A DNA stretch of 46,606 nucleotides from Chloroflexota bacterium (GTDB lineage Bacteria; Chloroflexota; Dehalococcoidia; Lucifugimonadales; Australimonadaceae), in NCBI GenBank assembly GCA_028874795.1, contig JAPPHT010000007.1, positions 1 to 46,606 on the forward strand, written 5' to 3'. Shown here one piece after another: positions 19,705 to 26,310 of this stretch. A program made the translations under genes and the position numbers. The notes beneath the pieces are model-generated. The model did no database searches. It was not told the origin of the DNA and saw only the letters and a program-made list of their open reading frames with translations. Every line of letters begins with the position of its first letter. Within the stretch, counting starts at the first letter, position 1.

Positions 19705-19847
19705 GCATAGCCCGTGGATAGCACGGAAGCAGGCCGTAGCCTGCTCCCCGATTTGGTGCCCTGAAGGCTTGTTAACGGTTCCTCACGCAGCTAAACCGCG
19801 TGCCCCGATCTCCCAATGCGGTGTGCCGTTTAGAAGCCTTTGGCATG
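19705..19847 (-). ncRNA. candidate tracrRNA, divergent from cas9
   Basis: Read on the minus strand. The antirepeat is in two blocks: GGGAGATCGGGG (19814-19803) and AGGAACCGTTAAC (19783-19771). They pair with the 5' two thirds of the CRISPR repeat read on the minus strand (12 bp, then 12 bp with one wobble and one bulged base). A 19-nt insert, CACGC...GCGTG (19802-19784), separates them and folds on itself. Next come a nexus-like hairpin GCC-TTCAG-GGC (19768-19758), a perfect 7-bp hairpin AGCAGGC-TACG-GCCTGCT with a UNCG-type loop (19745-19728), and a 5-bp hairpin CCGTG/CACGG (19726-19712). A TATACT -10 lies at 19859-19854. Ends are estimates, and no T run marks the 3' end. Confidence 0.75.
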
Positions 19848-19853
19848 CCACAT

Positions 19854-19861
19854 AGTATACT
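19854..19861. promoter_or_regulatory. palindromic -10 octamer shared by tracrRNA and cas9
   Basis: AGTATACT is its own reverse complement and gives TATACT on the minus strand (19859-19854, toward the tracrRNA) and on the plus strand (19856-19861, toward cas9). The -35 boxes are weak on both strands (minus TTGCCT at 15 bases; plus none clear). Confidence 0.45.
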
Positions 19862-19907
19862 GCCGAACTCCCGGAGGCAAGAATCAAGAGGAAGGAAGTG
19901 CGAATAG

Positions 19908-22900
19908 ATGCAGTACCGGCTTGGCATAGACCTCGGGACGAACTCCATCGGCTGGTCCGCCGTGCTCCTCGACGAAGAGGGGAAGGCCTGCGGCCTCTTG
20001 GACATGGGCGTCCGCATCTTCCCGGATGGACGTGAGAATTCCAAATCGCTCGACCCGCTGGGCCAATCGCTCGCGGTGAACCGGCGCATCCCGCGCGGTC
20101 AGCGGCGACGGCGCGACCGCTACCTCAGGCGGCGCAGCGAACTGCTGGACACGCTCACCGCCTGCGGACTGATGCCGCCGGACGCCGAATCCCGCGCGCA
20201 AGTAGCCGCGCTTGACCCTTACCCGCTCAGGAAACTCGCACTCGAACAGCAGCTCAGCCCATACGACCTCGGACGCGCGCTCTTCCACCTGAACCAGCGG
20301 CGGGGCTTCAAGTCCAACCGCAAGGCCAGACCGAAAGATGACGAGAAGGAGTCCCGCGAGAATCTGACCAACCTCCGCATCGCCCTCAGAGAGAACGACA
20401 TGCAACTCGGCGAATACCTTGCCGAATTGCACGCTCAAGGGAAACCTGTACGCGCACGCCCCGGCCTTGACCTCTACCCCGACCGCGCCATGTACGAGGC
20501 GGAGTTCGATGCGATCAGGAAGGAGCAAGAGCAACATCACAATCTGCGACCTGATCAGTGGGATTCGCTGAGAGACATCATCTTCTATCAGCGCCCGCTC
20601 AAGCCGGTCGATCCCGGTTGGTGCCTGCTGGAGGAAGGAGAGCGGCGTGCCCCCCGAGCCCTACACTCTGCGCAGGAGTTCCGCATCTTGCAGGAGCTCA
20701 ACAACCTGCGCACTCGGGTGGGCATCGAACCGGAGCGCCCCTTGAACGATGCCGAACGCAGTCGCATGCTCCAGCGCCTGCGAGAGGGTAAAGAAGTCGA
20801 CTTGCAGAAGCCCCCTAAGGGCCTGCGGCTGGACGGCTCGTTGAACCTCTCGCGCGGTGGACGTAAGAAACTCCAAGGGGACCAGACCACCGTGCGCCTG
20901 ACGAAACCGGATCTGTTCGGCGAACGCTGGCTGAGCCTGACACCGGAGGAGCGTGACGCCATAGTCGAGCGCCTGCTCGATACGGAAGACCCGGAAGCCG
21001 TCCGGCAGACGGCGGTCTCCGAATGGGATTTGAGCGAGGCGCAGGCCCAGAAGGTTGCCGAAGTGGTGCTCCCCGACGGTCATCTGCACCTCAGTGCGAA
21101 GGCCATTCGCAAAGTACTCCCGCACTTGCGGGACGGGATGCGGTACGATGAAGCCGTGGTGAAGGCTGGCTACCCACACCACTCCGACTTCCGCAACGCC
21201 GAGGCGCACGACCGTCTCCCATACTACGGCATTGTCCTGCAACGCGACGTCGTAGGCGCAGACCCGAACGCTCCGGAGGCTGACGAGGCGAAGCGCTTCG
21301 GGCGCTTCCCCAACCCCACCGTTCATGTCGGGCTGAACCAACTCCGCCGCGTCGTCAACCGGCTCATCGACGCCTACGGCAAACCAGCGGATATCGTGGT
21401 GGAACTCGCGCGCGACTTGAAATCGAGCAAGGAGCAGCGCGAGGAGTACGTCAGGCGGCAGCGCAGTAACGAGCATGAGAACGACCGCCGCCGGAAAGAG
21501 CTCCAGGAGTGCGGGATCGAGCCCAACGGATACGTGATGGAAAAGCTGCGCCCCTGGGAAGAGCAAGGCCCCGTGCAGGCGCGCCTTTGCCCGTACACCG
21601 GCAGACCCATCTCGTTCGGCATGGCCGTCTCCGATGCGACCGAGATAGATCACGTCCTTCCGAGGCGCACCCTTGACGATTCACTCGCCAACAAGGTCCT
21701 CTGTCTCAGGGAGGTCAACCGCTTCAAGAGCAACCGCTCTCCGCACGAGGCGTTCCACGATAGCCCGTTCGGCTACGACTACGACTCCATCCTCGCTCGC
21801 GCCGAACAACTGCCGGACAACAAGAAATGGCGCTTCCTTCCAGACGCCATGGACCGATTCGCTGACGAGAGCGGCTTCCTCGAACGCCAACTGAACGAGA
21901 CGCGCTACCTATCGCGCACGGCCCGCTCCTACCTCGCGCACCTCTATGACGAGAAGACAGAGGGCAGGTCGTTCGTCCGCGTTATCCTTGGCGGCATGAC
22001 CGCGCGGATCCGGCGCGGGTGGGGCCTGGAAGGGATGCTGCGCGAGAGTGGCGGAGGGAAACAGCGAGACGACCACCGCCACCATGCCATAGACGCCTTC
22101 GTCGCCGCCAACACCACCCAAGGCCTCGTGCAGCGGTTTCAGCAGGCCGCCGGGTCCGTGGAACCGGAGGCAAGGCTGGCTAAACTGCTGGGACGAGAAG
22201 AGCTCAAGCCGTGGCCCGGTTTCGACTGCAGTGAGGTGAAGCCGCTCATCGATCGCATGACCGTGTCCCACAAGCCCGACCACGGCGCACTGGGCGTGGG
22301 CGGTAAGACGACGGGTCAACTGCACAAGGCGACGGCCTACGGGCTGTTGGAGGAGCCCGGCAACGGGCCATCCAGGGTCGTCATCCGCATGAACTTGGCA
22401 GCCGTGGTAAAGCGGGCTGACCTTGCAGCCGTGCGGGACCCCGGCCTGCGAGATGGTCTGCTCGCCCTGTGGGATGCCGTTGAAGCGGAGAAACCGGAAC
22501 TCGACAGGGCCGAGGAGGAATTGGCGCGGCGGGAAGACCGCAGGCCCCAGAAGCAGCCGGTGGGCGCGATCTTTGCCGAACGCGCCGGGGATGAAGAGGT
22601 GGGTGTGAGCGTGAACGGACACATACAGCGCGTCCGGCGCGTGCGTATCGTCGAGGAGCAGAGCGTTGTACCCATCAGGGACAGCACGAGAAAGGCGTAC
22701 AAGGGCTACGTGCGTGGCAGTAACGCCTTCGCCGACGTCTGGAGGACGCCCGACGGCAGTTGGAAGACCGTCGTTGTGCCCACGTTCGAGTTCAACCAGC
22801 AGGATTTCACCATCGAGAACTTCCGCCCAGCCAGCAAAGATGGGCGCCCCGACCCCACGGCGAAACGGCTTATGCGCCTGCACATCGACGACATGGGCGC

Positions 22901-23141
22901 GTTCGGCGAGGGGGCAGACCGGCGCATCGTCCGCGTTCGCAAGATATCTAACTCTGCCACTGGCGCGCTTGTTGTTCTCGATCCTCACAACGAGGCCAAC
23001 GTCGCCGCACGTGCGAGCAACAAGGACGACCCGATAAGGGAGAACAAATACTCTGCCAAACAACTCCGCGAACAGGGTTTCCGGCGGGTAGGCGTGGATG
23101 AGATCGGGCGAGTGCTGGACCCGGGGCCACGCACGGGATGA
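19908..23141 (+). CDS. cas9: Cas9, type II-C CRISPR RNA-guided endonuclease
   Basis: Compact Cas9 of 1077 aa. RuvC-I GIDLGTNSIGW has catalytic D8. An Arg-rich bridge helix (59-76) follows, then the helical recognition lobe (about 80-470). RuvC-II ADIVVELARD carries E499. The HNH domain EIDHVLPRRTLDDSLANKVL has H582 and N595, with N604 downstream. RuvC-III HRHHAIDAF carries H726 and D729. The C-terminal PAM-interacting part includes YKGYVRGSNAFADVWR and FTIENFRPAS. All catalytic residues are present, so the enzyme should be active. The length and a cas9-cas1-cas2 operon without csn2 or cas4 define subtype II-C. The ATG at 19908 follows GAGGAAGGAAG. The stop overlaps the cas1 start (ATGA). A candidate tracrRNA is divergently placed just upstream. 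Confidence 0.97.
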   Translation: MQYRLGIDLGTNSIGWSAVLLDEEGKACGLLDMGVRIFPDGRENSKSLDPLGQSLAVNRRIPRGQRRRRDRYLRRRSELLDTLTACGLMPPDAESRAQVAALDPYPLRKLALEQQLSPYDLGRALFHLNQRRGFKSNRKARPKDDEKESRENLTNLRIALRENDMQLGEYLAELHAQGKPVRARPGLDLYPDRAMYEAEFDAIRKEQEQHHNLRPDQWDSLRDIIFYQRPLKPVDPGWCLLEEGERRAPRALHSAQEFRILQELNNLRTRVGIEPERPLNDAERSRMLQRLREGKEVDLQKPPKGLRLDGSLNLSRGGRKKLQGDQTTVRLTKPDLFGERWLSLTPEERDAIVERLLDTEDPEAVRQTAVSEWDLSEAQAQKVAEVVLPDGHLHLSAKAIRKVLPHLRDGMRYDEAVVKAGYPHHSDFRNAEAHDRLPYYGIVLQRDVVGADPNAPEADEAKRFGRFPNPTVHVGLNQLRRVVNRLIDAYGKPADIVVELARDLKSSKEQREEYVRRQRSNEHENDRRRKELQECGIEPNGYVMEKLRPWEEQGPVQARLCPYTGRPISFGMAVSDATEIDHVLPRRTLDDSLANKVLCLREVNRFKSNRSPHEAFHDSPFGYDYDSILARAEQLPDNKKWRFLPDAMDRFADESGFLERQLNETRYLSRTARSYLAHLYDEKTEGRSFVRVILGGMTARIRRGWGLEGMLRESGGGKQRDDHRHHAIDAFVAANTTQGLVQRFQQAAGSVEPEARLAKLLGREELKPWPGFDCSEVKPLIDRMTVSHKPDHGALGVGGKTTGQLHKATAYGLLEEPGNGPSRVVIRMNLAAVVKRADLAAVRDPGLRDGLLALWDAVEAEKPELDRAEEELARREDRRPQKQPVGAIFAERAGDEEVGVSVNGHIQRVRRVRIVEEQSVVPIRDSTRKAYKGYVRGSNAFADVWRTPDGSWKTVVVPTFEFNQQDFTIENFRPASKDGRPDPTAKRLMRLHIDDMGAFGEGADRRIVRVRKISNSATGALVVLDPHNEANVAARASNKDDPIRENKYSAKQLREQGFRRVGVDEIGRVLDPGPRTG

Positions 23142-24055
23142 TCGGTCGCGTCGTCGAGATTGCGAGCGAGGGGCAGCACCTCTCCCGCCACCGGGGTTTT
23201 CTCTCCGTTCGCAAGGACAGCGAGGAACTGGCGCGCATTCCTCTGGACGACATAGCCGTCCTCCTCTGTAATACTGAGGCGCACGGTCTCACCTACACCA
23301 ACGACCTCTTGGTGGATATGGCCAACCGGGGCATCCCCGCCGTGCTCTGCGGCGCAAACTACCTCCCTGTCGCGTGGCTCTGGCCGGTGGAAGGGCATCA
23401 TGTCCAATCTCTCCGCATGCGCTCCCAGCTGGAAGCATCCCTCCCGCTCCGCAAGCGCCTCTGGCAGGCGCTCGTCAAGGCGAAGATAGCCCAGCAGCAG
23501 AACGTGCTGGACGTTCTTGGCGTCCCTGGCGGAGGGCTCCTGGCGCTCGCCCAGCGCGTCCGGTCTGGCGATCCAGACAACGTGGAAGCGCAGGCGGCGC
23601 GCCGTTACTGGCCGCTCGTCTTTGGTTCCAACTTCCGCCGCGACCGCTCCGCAGGCGGTGCGAACGCTTTTCTGAACTATGGCTATACAGTGCTCAGGGC
23701 AGCGGTGGCCCGCTCCGTTGCCGCCGCCGGTCTCCACCCGTCCATCGGCATCCACCATCACAACCGCGCCAACCCGTTCTGCCTCGTGGACGACCTCATG
23801 GAACCATTCAGGCCGCTGGTGGACTACGCCGTCGTTCGGCTGGCCAAGGCAGGACACCGGGAGATGACTAGCGAGACCAAGCGGGCGCTCGCGGGCGTTC
23901 TCGTGATGGACCTGCGCACTGAACGCGGCACAACACCGCTCCAGACGTGCATTGAGCGCGCGGCGCAGTCGGCCGCACAATCCTACGAATCCTGCAAGCC
24001 CATCTTCACATTTCCCGGCCCGCCCCTCGTAGACTCATCAGGAGACACCGAATGA
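23138..24055 (+). CDS. cas1: Cas1, CRISPR integrase
   Basis: Cas1 of 305 aa, the integrase that, with Cas2, inserts new spacers. Metal-site residues can be assigned to E150 in NVEAQAARRYW, one of H206-H208 in GIHHHNRANPF, and E222 in LVDDLMEPFRP. The N-terminal beta-domain begins MIGRVVEIASEGQHLSRHRGF, typical of type II Cas1. The ATG overlaps the cas9 stop by ATGA, so translation is coupled. All key residues are intact, arguing that acquisition could work if a functional leader remains. The following cas2 starts 12 bases downstream. Confidence 0.97.
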   Translation: MIGRVVEIASEGQHLSRHRGFLSVRKDSEELARIPLDDIAVLLCNTEAHGLTYTNDLLVDMANRGIPAVLCGANYLPVAWLWPVEGHHVQSLRMRSQLEASLPLRKRLWQALVKAKIAQQQNVLDVLGVPGGGLLALAQRVRSGDPDNVEAQAARRYWPLVFGSNFRRDRSAGGANAFLNYGYTVLRAAVARSVAAAGLHPSIGIHHHNRANPFCLVDDLMEPFRPLVDYAVVRLAKAGHREMTSETKRALAGVLVMDLRTERGTTPLQTCIERAAQSAAQSYESCKPIFTFPGPPLVDSSGDTE

Positions 24056-24067
24056 GGAACGCCGCCT

Positions 24068-24394
24068 GTGCTTTCGGGGTACCGCCTCATGTGGATGATG
24101 GTGATTTTCGACCTGCCCGTCTTGACGAAACCGCAGCGGCGGGCGGCCAACAAGTTTCGCCAGTTCCTGCTGGATCAGGGCTTCGGTATGTGCCAACTGT
24201 CGGTCTACATGCGCTTCTGTGGCGGCAAGGAGCAAGCCGAGGTCTACACCCGCCGGGTGCAGTCTGCCCTGCCCCGCGCGGGAAACGTGCAGATCCTCTA
24301 CTTCACTGATAAGCAGTACGAGAACATCGTCAGCTTCAACGGACCGGTGCGTCGCCCGCCTAACAGAAATCCGCAGCAGTACGCGCTCTTCTGA
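24068..24394 (+). CDS. cas2: Cas2, CRISPR adaptation protein
   Basis: Cas2 of 108 aa with the expected first strand and loop, MWMMVIFDLPVLTKPQRRAA, containing the conserved Asp, and the second strand MCQLSVYMRFC. The C-terminal half (NVQILYFTDKQYENI) is typical of type II-C Cas2. The GTG at 24068 has GAGGA at about 24052-24056. A later in-frame ATG at Met8 is possible. It ends 72 bases before the first CRISPR repeat. Confidence 0.93.
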   Translation: MLSGYRLMWMMVIFDLPVLTKPQRRAANKFRQFLLDQGFGMCQLSVYMRFCGGKEQAEVYTRRVQSALPRAGNVQILYFTDKQYENIVSFNGPVRRPPNRNPQQYALF

Positions 24395-24466: not shown

Positions 24467-25469
24467 AGTTTATTCGATGGGAGATCGGGGAGGAACCGCA
24501 ACTGCCGTGCTATGCGATTGTCGTGCGGGACCAGTTTATTCGATGGGAGATCGGGGAGGAACCGCAACTAGTGCCACCGGTGCACACGCTCTCGCGCAAG
24601 TTTATTCGATGGGAGATCGGGGAGGAACCGCAACATGCTCGCGCTGGTAGCAGCGCTGGCAGAGAGTTTATCCGATGGGAGATCGGGGAGGAACCGCAAC
24701 GTGACAGGAGCGTGGTTCATGTTCCTGCCGAGTTTATCCGATGGGAGATCGGGGAGGAACCGCAACAGGATGTTCTGGAAGGCGACGATGAGCGTCAGTT
24801 TATCCGATGGGAGATCGGGGAGGAACCGCAACACCGTATCTTCCGGATCGTGTCCCTGGTAGTTTATCCGATGGGAGATCGGGGGGGAACCGCAACTGGG
24901 AGTACCCGCCGCATCGGCTACCGGCAAAGTTTATCCGATGGGAGATCGGGGAGGAACCGCAACTCGAATGGCCGGGGTTGCGACCGGCCTCCCAGTTTAT
25001 CCGATGGGAGATCGGGGAGGAACCGCAACGAGAAGTACGGCGCATGGCGCACGTATCGGAGTTTATCCGATGGGAGATCGGGGAGGAACCGCAACATGGA
25101 GCCGGTGCTTTCGCTTGCGCGCCGAGTTTATCCGATGGGAGATCGGGGAGGAACCGCAACTACCGATAGAGCAGCTGCCCATCCAAGAGAGTTTATCCGA
25201 TGGGAGATCGGGGAGGAACCGCAACGGCAAGACGTCGTACGTGGCCTGCACCTAGTTTATCCGATGGGAGATCGGGGAGGAACCGCAACGCGAGGTAGCC
25301 CCGTGAGCACCGCGGCCGAAGTTTATCCGATGGGAGATCGGGGAGGAACCGCAACCAGCATCTCCGTATGCAGGTGCGGGCGGTAGTTTATCCGATGGGA
25401 GATCGGGGAGGAACCGCAACCGCAGGAGGCGGACATCACGATCGAGGTCGAGTTTATCCGATGGGAGAT
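24467..25469 (-). CRISPR. type II-C CRISPR array, 15 full repeats, 15 spacers, one truncated repeat
   Basis: Repeats are 36 bp, beginning AGTTTATCCGATGGG and ending GGGGAGGAACCGCAAC on the plus strand. Full copies start at 24467, 24533, 24599, 24665, 24731, 24797, 24861, 24928, 24994, 25060, 25125, 25190, 25254, 25320 and 25385. A 19-base copy occupies 25451-25469. Spacers are 28-31 bases, mostly 30, all different. The first three repeats have TATTCG where the others have TATCCG; the seventh has GGGGGGGAAC instead of GGGGAGGAAC. The tracrRNA antirepeat fits crRNA made from the minus strand, where the repeat starts GTTGCGG and ends GATAAACT. No AT-rich leader is seen on either side; the left flank (24395-24466) is GC-rich and holds the hairpin GCTGGC-CTC-GCCAGC. 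Confidence 0.95.
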
Positions 25470-26098
25470 TAGGTACGTCTGAACCTCTCCATTACTTGGG
25501 GCACTTGGATATTGCCCCAGCATGTTTGGGACAGTAGCGAACCCTGATGCTGGAATGCTCCGTGGATGGTCTTAATCCCTCTGGTACTGAGGAACTCTAC
25601 CACCGGGACAAAGTCGCGATCTGACGAGAGCAGGACCGCTACATCATAATTGTCCACCCAGGCCAACTTGATCATGTCGGTCGCGATGCGGGTGTCTACG
25701 CCCTTTTCTTCGGTGCCCCTTATGTCTGATTGGCACTTCGGGCAACTAGAAATCTCTTCATGGCACGACGGGCAGACTGGACCTCGCTTCTTACGCTGTC
25801 GCGGGAGCATTGTGACCTGTACCCCGGCGAATCTATTCAGAGTGTTCAAGGCCCATTTGAGGAGACCCTCGTCCTTCTTGCTGGCAGCGTCATATGAGCC
25901 GTATACATTCATGCCTTGGTAGGCAACCGATGCTGCTGCGTCTACTATTCTCAGAGACTCCTGTGCCAGCACTAATCCCATCGATTGCCAGTCGACTTTG
26001 AATCCCGGAGCTACATTGTTCATCAGTAGCTGGAAGTTCCAGAAGTCGACAAACACCTTCACGCGGACTCTGTGCTCTGTATTCAGGTCAGTTGACAT
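25469..26098 (-). CDS. NYN/PIN-like (LabA/DUF88) ribonuclease-type protein with zinc ribbon insert
   Basis: Protein of 209 aa with the NYN nuclease fold. The first acidic site is in VFVDFWNF (D18, N21), then D135 and D141 in GVDTRIATDMI, and D160/D162 in LLSSDRDFVPVVEFL. A four-cysteine ribbon, CPSC (109-112) and CPKC (119-122), is inserted in the middle. NYN proteins cleave RNA, so an RNase role is likely. The ATG at 26098 has GGAGGG about 11 bases upstream; the open frame extends further but through a hairpin terminator. The gene converges on the CRISPR array: its stop codon (25471-25469) uses the last base of the truncated terminal repeat. It could be a defence gene, a toxin-like RNase or an unrelated neighbour. 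Confidence 0.85.
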   Translation of the reverse strand: MSTDLNTEHRVRVKVFVDFWNFQLLMNNVAPGFKVDWQSMGLVLAQESLRIVDAAASVAYQGMNVYGSYDAASKKDEGLLKWALNTLNRFAGVQVTMLPRQRKKRGPVCPSCHEEISSCPKCQSDIRGTEEKGVDTRIATDMIKLAWVDNYDVAVLLSSDRDFVPVVEFLSTRGIKTIHGAFQHQGSLLSQTCWGNIQVPQVMERFRRT

Positions 26099-26114
26099 CT
26101 GCCGATTACCCTCC

Positions 26115-26145
26115 AAAAAAATACAGGGACGCATACGCGTCCCTG
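26115..26145 (-). terminator. intrinsic terminator/attenuator in the leader of the NYN gene
   Basis: Minus strand: perfect 9-bp stem CAGGGACGC/GCGTCCCTG (26145-26124) with a 4-base loop, followed by TA and seven T (26121-26115). It lies directly before the GGAGGG ribosome site and 17 bases from the ATG at 26098. It would stop transcripts coming from upstream or attenuate the NYN gene. Confidence 0.75.
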
Positions 26146-26260
26146 GGGTCGTAGTAACCGAGTACCATTGCTCCCATAACTGTTGGGTGGCGGCTCGGTG
26201 GATTCTAATGAAGCCAGTATGAAGAGCAAGGAGGTGTTCTGTCAACCCCCCCCCCGGCTT

Positions 26261-26310
26261 GTTGCGTAAAGCCCACTTGTTGCAAAAGTCCCGATTCTGT
26301 TGCAAGAGTC
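26261..26310. repeat. tandem TTGTTGC motifs, IS-end-like
   Basis: Three direct copies: CTTGTTGCGTAAAGCCC, CTTGTTGCAAAAGTCCC and CTGTTGCAAGAGTC. The first resembles an inverted-orientation copy near 27125 (GGCCTTGTTGCGTAAATC on the minus strand). Such ends are like those of IS5-family elements as I remember them. No transposase is present. Confidence 0.5.

Follow-up and report, generated by a model that had tools for sequence, protein, structure and literature searches.

In the natural Cas9 guides described so far, to our knowledge, repeat and antirepeat form a simple stem that contains at most a small bulge. The Neisseria Nme1Cas9-type guides of type II-C follow a layout of a lower stem, a break at about repeat nt 9-12, an upper stem, a nexus and a terminal hairpin. 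More elaborate guides have also been reported: that of BlCas9 has an unexpected architecture, with a scaffold triple helix alongside a simple repeat:antirepeat duplex (PMC11222456), and a catalogue of 79 Cas9s includes longer and more complex guides in some clades, its text mentioning no three-way junction in this duplex (PMC7606464). A large metagenomic set comprises many non-canonical predicted folds, which its text does not detail (PMC10278012). None of the papers searched shows a Cas9 guide with a junction of this kind, and it is possible that one has been drawn earlier. Here we describe a variant of the Cas9 guide that occurs naturally across a clade; both its presence in the sequences and the maintenance of its pairing are well supported, and its duplex is predicted to hold a three-way junction.

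The window, that is the whole stretch of 46,606 nucleotides that was analysed, is a contig from a genome of 3.33 Mb (97% complete) and contains a cas9-cas1-cas2 locus with a CRISPR array (Table 1). These three are its only cas genes: neither csn2 nor cas4 was found beside them with Pfam and NCBIfam, and the flanking ORFs tested with the same profiles encode an alpha/beta hydrolase and a NYN protein. The HNH and RuvC domains of Cas9, the three-gene set and the grouping with II-C Cas9s place the locus in type II-C. In the tree the Cas9 of the window falls among II-C-like loci, its nearest relative (that of locus G001) being 76-78% identical, and the solved structures most similar to it in sequence are what we take to be Nme1Cas9-type chains.

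The crRNA strand of the array (minus) was deduced from the strand of the tracrRNA. A -10-like box is present at the 3' ends of the minus-strand repeats (GGATAAACT in the window, TATAAT in G755 and G895, TACAAT in L047), which suggests that each crRNA may be expressed from a promoter of its own within the repeat. In the terminal repeat (25451-25469) little more than this promoter half is left, and the ORF encoding the NYN-domain protein (25469-26305, minus strand) ends exactly at this truncated repeat.

Table 1. Features of the locus and of the candidate tracrRNA, numbered from the first nucleotide of the window
Feature	Position	Strand	Basis or remark
short 3' hairpin CCGTG-CUAUC-CACGG	19712..19726	-	sequence
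UACG-capped terminal hairpin, 10 bp	19725..19748	-	homologous to the terminator hairpin; T-run missing in the window
nexus hairpin GCCU-UCA-GGGC, GCCTTCAGGGC	19758..19768	-	predicted to form in the crRNA complex and to be masked in the tracrRNA alone
antirepeat block 2 (lower helix), AGGAACCG-TTAAC = AGGAACCGTTAAC	19771..19783	-	8 nt equal to the repeat, then AAC:GUU
hairpin insert (third arm), 19 nt, CACGCGGTTTAGCTGCGTG	19784..19802	-	fold z -3.7; stem kept in G001
antirepeat block 1 (upper helix), TGGGAGATCGGGG	19803..19815	-	13 of 13 nt identical to the plus-strand repeat
5' leader, AAGGCTTCTAAACGG	19826..19840	-	complementary to CCGTTAACAAGCCTT (lower antirepeat and nexus, 19764-19778)
-10-like box TACTAT	19852..19857	-	sequence; TATACTAT identical in the nearest relative, G001
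-35-like box TTGCCT (putative promoter of the tracrRNA)	19875..19880	-	sequence; 17 nt from the -10-like box
cas9 (1077 aa)	19908..23141	+	TIGR01865, 572 bits; HNH_4 and RuvC_III domains
cas1	23138..24055	+	cas1_NMENI TIGR03639, 248 bits
cas2	24068..24394	+	TIGR01573
CRISPR array, 15 full 36-nt repeats and 1 truncated	24467..25469	-	crRNA strand minus (GTTGCGGTTCCTCCCCGATCTCCCATCGGATAAACT)

The candidate tracrRNA is found immediately upstream of cas9, on the minus strand, and is divergent from it. An earlier note, made from the letters of this DNA, had proposed that two blocks of this strand match the repeat and are split by a 19-nt hairpin, and each of these elements was indeed found. The exact match of the two blocks to the repeat totals 21 nt, a value reached by none of 200 shuffled repeats searched against the whole window on both strands (mean 13.8, maximum 18), and the insert folds far better than its shuffles (z -3.7). 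When as many as 3 mismatches were allowed, GGGAGATCGGGGAGGAACCG was matched in the 3.3-Mb genome by the array alone; thus there is no better antirepeat elsewhere at this tolerance, in agreement with the same reading. No Rfam family reached its gathering score anywhere in the window.

Transcription of the tracrRNA would run away from cas9 along the minus strand, with a predicted start at about 19845-19846. Promoter boxes with similar spacing are seen by eye in the relatives, and a generic sigma-70 scan scored the putative promoter of the window below its threshold. The nexus and the terminal hairpin(s) follow the antirepeat, and the proposed order of nexus, UNCG-capped hairpin and short hairpin holds, but the UNCG-capped stem has the length given in Table 1 and not the 7 bp first assigned to it. 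The T-run of the terminator, missing in the window, is present at the same place in G819, G422 and G779. After the UACG hairpin, the window and G001 have the tract GTGCTATCC-CGGGCTA (19711-19728, minus strand) and other relatives a T-run, and termination in these two loci may differ from that in the relatives with the T-run.

Cas9 searches in related genomes, in 84,980 species and in IMG/VR yielded about 100 loci, the relatives in genome contigs being found by an alignment-based scan (a scan with the single sequence gave none). No further members of the clade described below were found in related groups, and the phage and plasmid collections held distant Cas9s only. For each locus the array was located, and the tracrRNA was located through the conserved antirepeat end GTTAACAAG. 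Of the 45 outgroup loci, 41 have 7 nt between the end of the GGGG block and GTTAAC (6 nt in two, 8 and 13 nt in one each), whereas the carriers of the clade have 26-41 nt: 26 in the window, G895, G890 and G921, 30 in G001, 32 in L051, L053 and L057, 34 in G819, 36 in G779 and 41 in G422.

An insert of 19-34 nt is present in 13 of the 16 clade loci with a readable tracrRNA (L047 and L038 are clade rows without one), nearly always at or beside the site of the bulge. As judged by eye, the insert of L052 is nearly the same as that of L057, and the insert of G005 has 31 nt forming two hairpins at 5 nt from the repeat end. The clade members G383, G755 and G303 lack the insert, which is therefore not essential to this type of Cas9. 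All long inserts fall in one Cas9 clade of 18 rows, recovered both with FastTree from 99 Cas9s (support 100) and with IQ-TREE from 37 (100/100), and the fewest changes of insert state on the tree are three. This clade spans Chloroflexota and some Alphaproteobacteria, and across it the same architecture recurs with different insert sequences.

Some other features of these loci deserve mention. The cas9 gene extends over two reading frames in L016 (G303) and L045 (G890) and is eroded to fragments in L046 (G922); the tracrRNA is still present in G303 and G890 despite the split gene. In the nearby rows L017-L019, also from Chloroflexota, the antirepeat contains a smaller insert of 12 nt that is a UNCG-type mini-hairpin (regions L017:7900, L018:1010 and L019:8219, in cas9-plus orientation). 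The 3' arm of this mini-hairpin overlaps the block that pairs with the crRNA, so that hairpin formation and crRNA pairing would compete.

The decisive evidence for a split-antirepeat tracrRNA is comparative. When the insert is deleted, the antirepeat of each of 12 carriers can be aligned gap-free with its own crRNA repeat (L052, whose repeat is unknown, was excluded, and the repeats of G921 and G890 are known from only one or two units); the borders of the blocks were drawn by eye and may shift by 1-2 nt at the junction. In this set 98.9% of the repeat:antirepeat cells are paired, against 35-54% in controls with a slid register. Double-sided changes occur at 11 of the 23 base pairs, four of them in the lower helix and seven in the upper one, and these values were reached in 0 of 500 shuffles. 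Both blocks therefore covary with the repeat of each locus, which together with the recurrence in the clade bears out the split-antirepeat reading of the earlier note.

In the proposed guide the crRNA (minus-strand repeat, 5'-GUUGCGGUUCCU followed by CCCCGAUCUCCC) would pair with the split antirepeat to give a three-way junction, whose arms would be a lower helix of repeat nt 1-12, an upper helix of nt 13-24 and, as the third, the hairpin internal to the tracrRNA; the nexus and the terminal hairpin would come after, as in ordinary Cas9 guides. The unconstrained cofold with the repeat pairs both blocks of the window, as had been suggested, and in 12 of 13 carriers the minimum free energy structure is the junction, in which both blocks are paired and the insert pairs with itself. 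For this prediction L052 was given the repeat of L057 and G921 a stand-in, later replaced by the repeat of its own locus for the ensemble. The exception is G005, which keeps block 1 and its two hairpins and has a weak lower helix; the two adjacent hairpins of this locus (L013, 6850 region) would turn the guide into a four-way junction with a very short lower helix. Ensemble pairing probabilities, computed for 12 loci, are in the window 1.00 for the upper helix and 0.99 for the lower one, with a self-paired fraction of 0.83 for the insert. Where the standard Cas9 guide has a single repeat:antirepeat stem, broken by no more than a small bulge, the window has its 19-nt hairpin and, in the cofold, the junction. 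We consider it very likely that this is a functional type II-C tracrRNA, presumably transcribed and accepted by its Cas9, whose guide duplex holds a three-way junction.

The free RNA had also been supposed to hide both the antirepeat and the nexus. The part of this claim that concerns the leader stood: in the predicted fold AAGGCTT pairs with AAGCCTT of the nexus with a probability of 0.82-0.99 and AACGG lies on CCGTT, so that the lower antirepeat and the nexus are hidden, while the insert hairpin stays formed in the free and the bound states. The other pairing invoked, CTAAAC with GTTTAG, has to be rejected, as its probability in the free RNA is 0.00 and it is lost in the nearest relative, G001. 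When the crRNA is added to the prediction, the leader is displaced and the junction and the nexus form. In the species of the window the leader would thus sit on the lower antirepeat and the nexus of the free RNA, and the crRNA would displace it and let the nexus fold. The complementarity of the leader has a z of -2.9 in the window and recurs in four relatives (G001, G383, G755 and G422). Leader:nexus complementarity is absent from most carriers, shows no association with the insert (Mann-Whitney p 0.26) and is present in G383 and G755, which have no insert; we therefore regard it as a separate trait and reject leader:nexus masking as a feature of the whole clade linked to the insert.

The inserts themselves are unrelated in sequence between subclades and mostly self-complementary. 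G895, G890 and G921 keep a 6-bp stem with one double change from C-G to U-A and one change from G-C to G-U; covariation of the stem in these three sequences alone is not significant (153 of 500 shuffles reach the count), and its weakness inside the hairpins is explained by the small number of close relatives. The stem shared by the window and G001 is maintained by one-sided changes. The alphaproteobacterial inserts (L051-L057) are conserved in sequence among four divergent loci and are weakly stable, not being stable alone (z about 0 or above).

On the crRNA repeat the insert is placed at nt 12/13 in the window and G001, at about nt 9/10 in most of the others and at nt 5/6 in G005. G383 and G755 have, in the cofold, a 3x3 internal loop at repeat nt 8-10, and the guides of NmeCas9 and SpCas9 have an internal loop or a bulge at this place. 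Since the site of the insert corresponds to the 3x3 loop of the insert-less members and to the bulge of other II-C guides, it is most likely that the hairpin has taken over from the bulge in structurally separating the two helices, and that it protrudes from the guide.

What the hairpin does can be read in several ways. It may be a third arm of the guide with a function of its own, kept in a deep clade because the junction is recognised by Cas9 or controls the assembly of the guide, and if so it would constitute a new structural module of Cas9 guides; we put this forward only tentatively. An equally tentative reading makes it a neutral expansion segment: the tracrRNA would be functional and the junction would form, but the hairpin would have no role of its own, the bulge site being a tolerant, solvent-facing place that takes up any self-folding insert. 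Engineered Cas9 guides can carry aptamers in this very duplex, the length (19-34 nt), sequence and exact position of the insert vary, and some members do without it, all of which fits neutrality; its retention in 13 of the 16 readable members of a deep clade, set against a spacing of exactly 7 nt in 41 of the 45 outgroup loci, does not, and neither does the conserved alphaproteobacterial sequence. The protein also speaks for a segment that is not read, for Cas9 has no matching indel: no clade-specific indel of note that could read the hairpin was found, only 21 diagnostic residues. An AlphaFold model of Cas9 built from ten sequences was too poor (pLDDT 55, pTM 0.32) for structural comparison.

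The hairpin might instead act in folding or in processing. As a folding switch it would keep the antirepeat halves apart in the free RNA, where the leader masks the lower antirepeat and the nexus, and would let the crRNA enter stepwise. This agrees with the nexus being hidden in the free fold, with the insert hairpin being formed in both states and with the bases that the mini-hairpin of L017-L019 shares with the crRNA-pairing block, yet we hold it to be unlikely given that the leader:nexus trait and the insert are not linked (G383, G755; p 0.26). It is more doubtful still that the hairpin serves to control processing, breaking the duplex below a full RNase III substrate and so setting where or whether it is cut. 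The junction does divide the duplex, and the -10-like boxes at the repeat 3' ends would fit repeat-internal promoters and dispensable processing, a parallel to Neisseria; but in carriers such as G422 and G895 the upper helix is long and unbroken and would still be open to RNase III. That the element is a decayed or coincidental relic, the real tracrRNA lying elsewhere or being absent, is very improbable and largely refuted already: the missing T-run and the weak promoter score would suit it, against which stand the lack of any other antirepeat in the genome, the 0 of 200 shuffles and the co-variation maintained in twelve loci.

A clade that keeps a helical arm at the site of the bulge would mean that branching of the guide at this site occurs in nature, and its carriers offer ready-made examples of where guides can hold an extra domain. 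The presence and absence of the insert within one clade also make the role of the bulge directly testable. Programs that need one contiguous antirepeat would see here a match of 13 nt and may miss the gene.

Among known systems, the type V tracrRNAs (Cas12b, Cas12f1, Cas12c) resemble the present one in that the repeat pairs with separated tracrRNA stretches, the guide of Cas12c having three disjoint stems (PMC11246509). Their effector is another one, and they show pseudoknots or disjoint stems in contrast to the single hairpin-interrupted duplex seen here. The omegaRNA that guides IscB, a relative of Cas9, also contains a three-way junction (PMC9640706), at another place in the RNA; identity with it is ruled out by the 1077-aa Cas9 effector and the separate CRISPR array. 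The guides of the 45 outgroup II-C loci share with the clade the antirepeat end, the nexus, the terminal hairpin and mostly the location on the minus strand upstream of cas9, and differ in a contiguous antirepeat, with exactly 7 nt in 41 of them where the clade has 26-41. The Neisseria Nme1Cas9-type systems are alike in having the closest Cas9 among the solved structures, the cas9-cas1-cas2 order and the same succession of lower stem, break, upper stem, nexus and terminal hairpin; in their guides the break is a small internal loop, whereas here it is a hairpin of 19-34 nt that would form a third helical arm.
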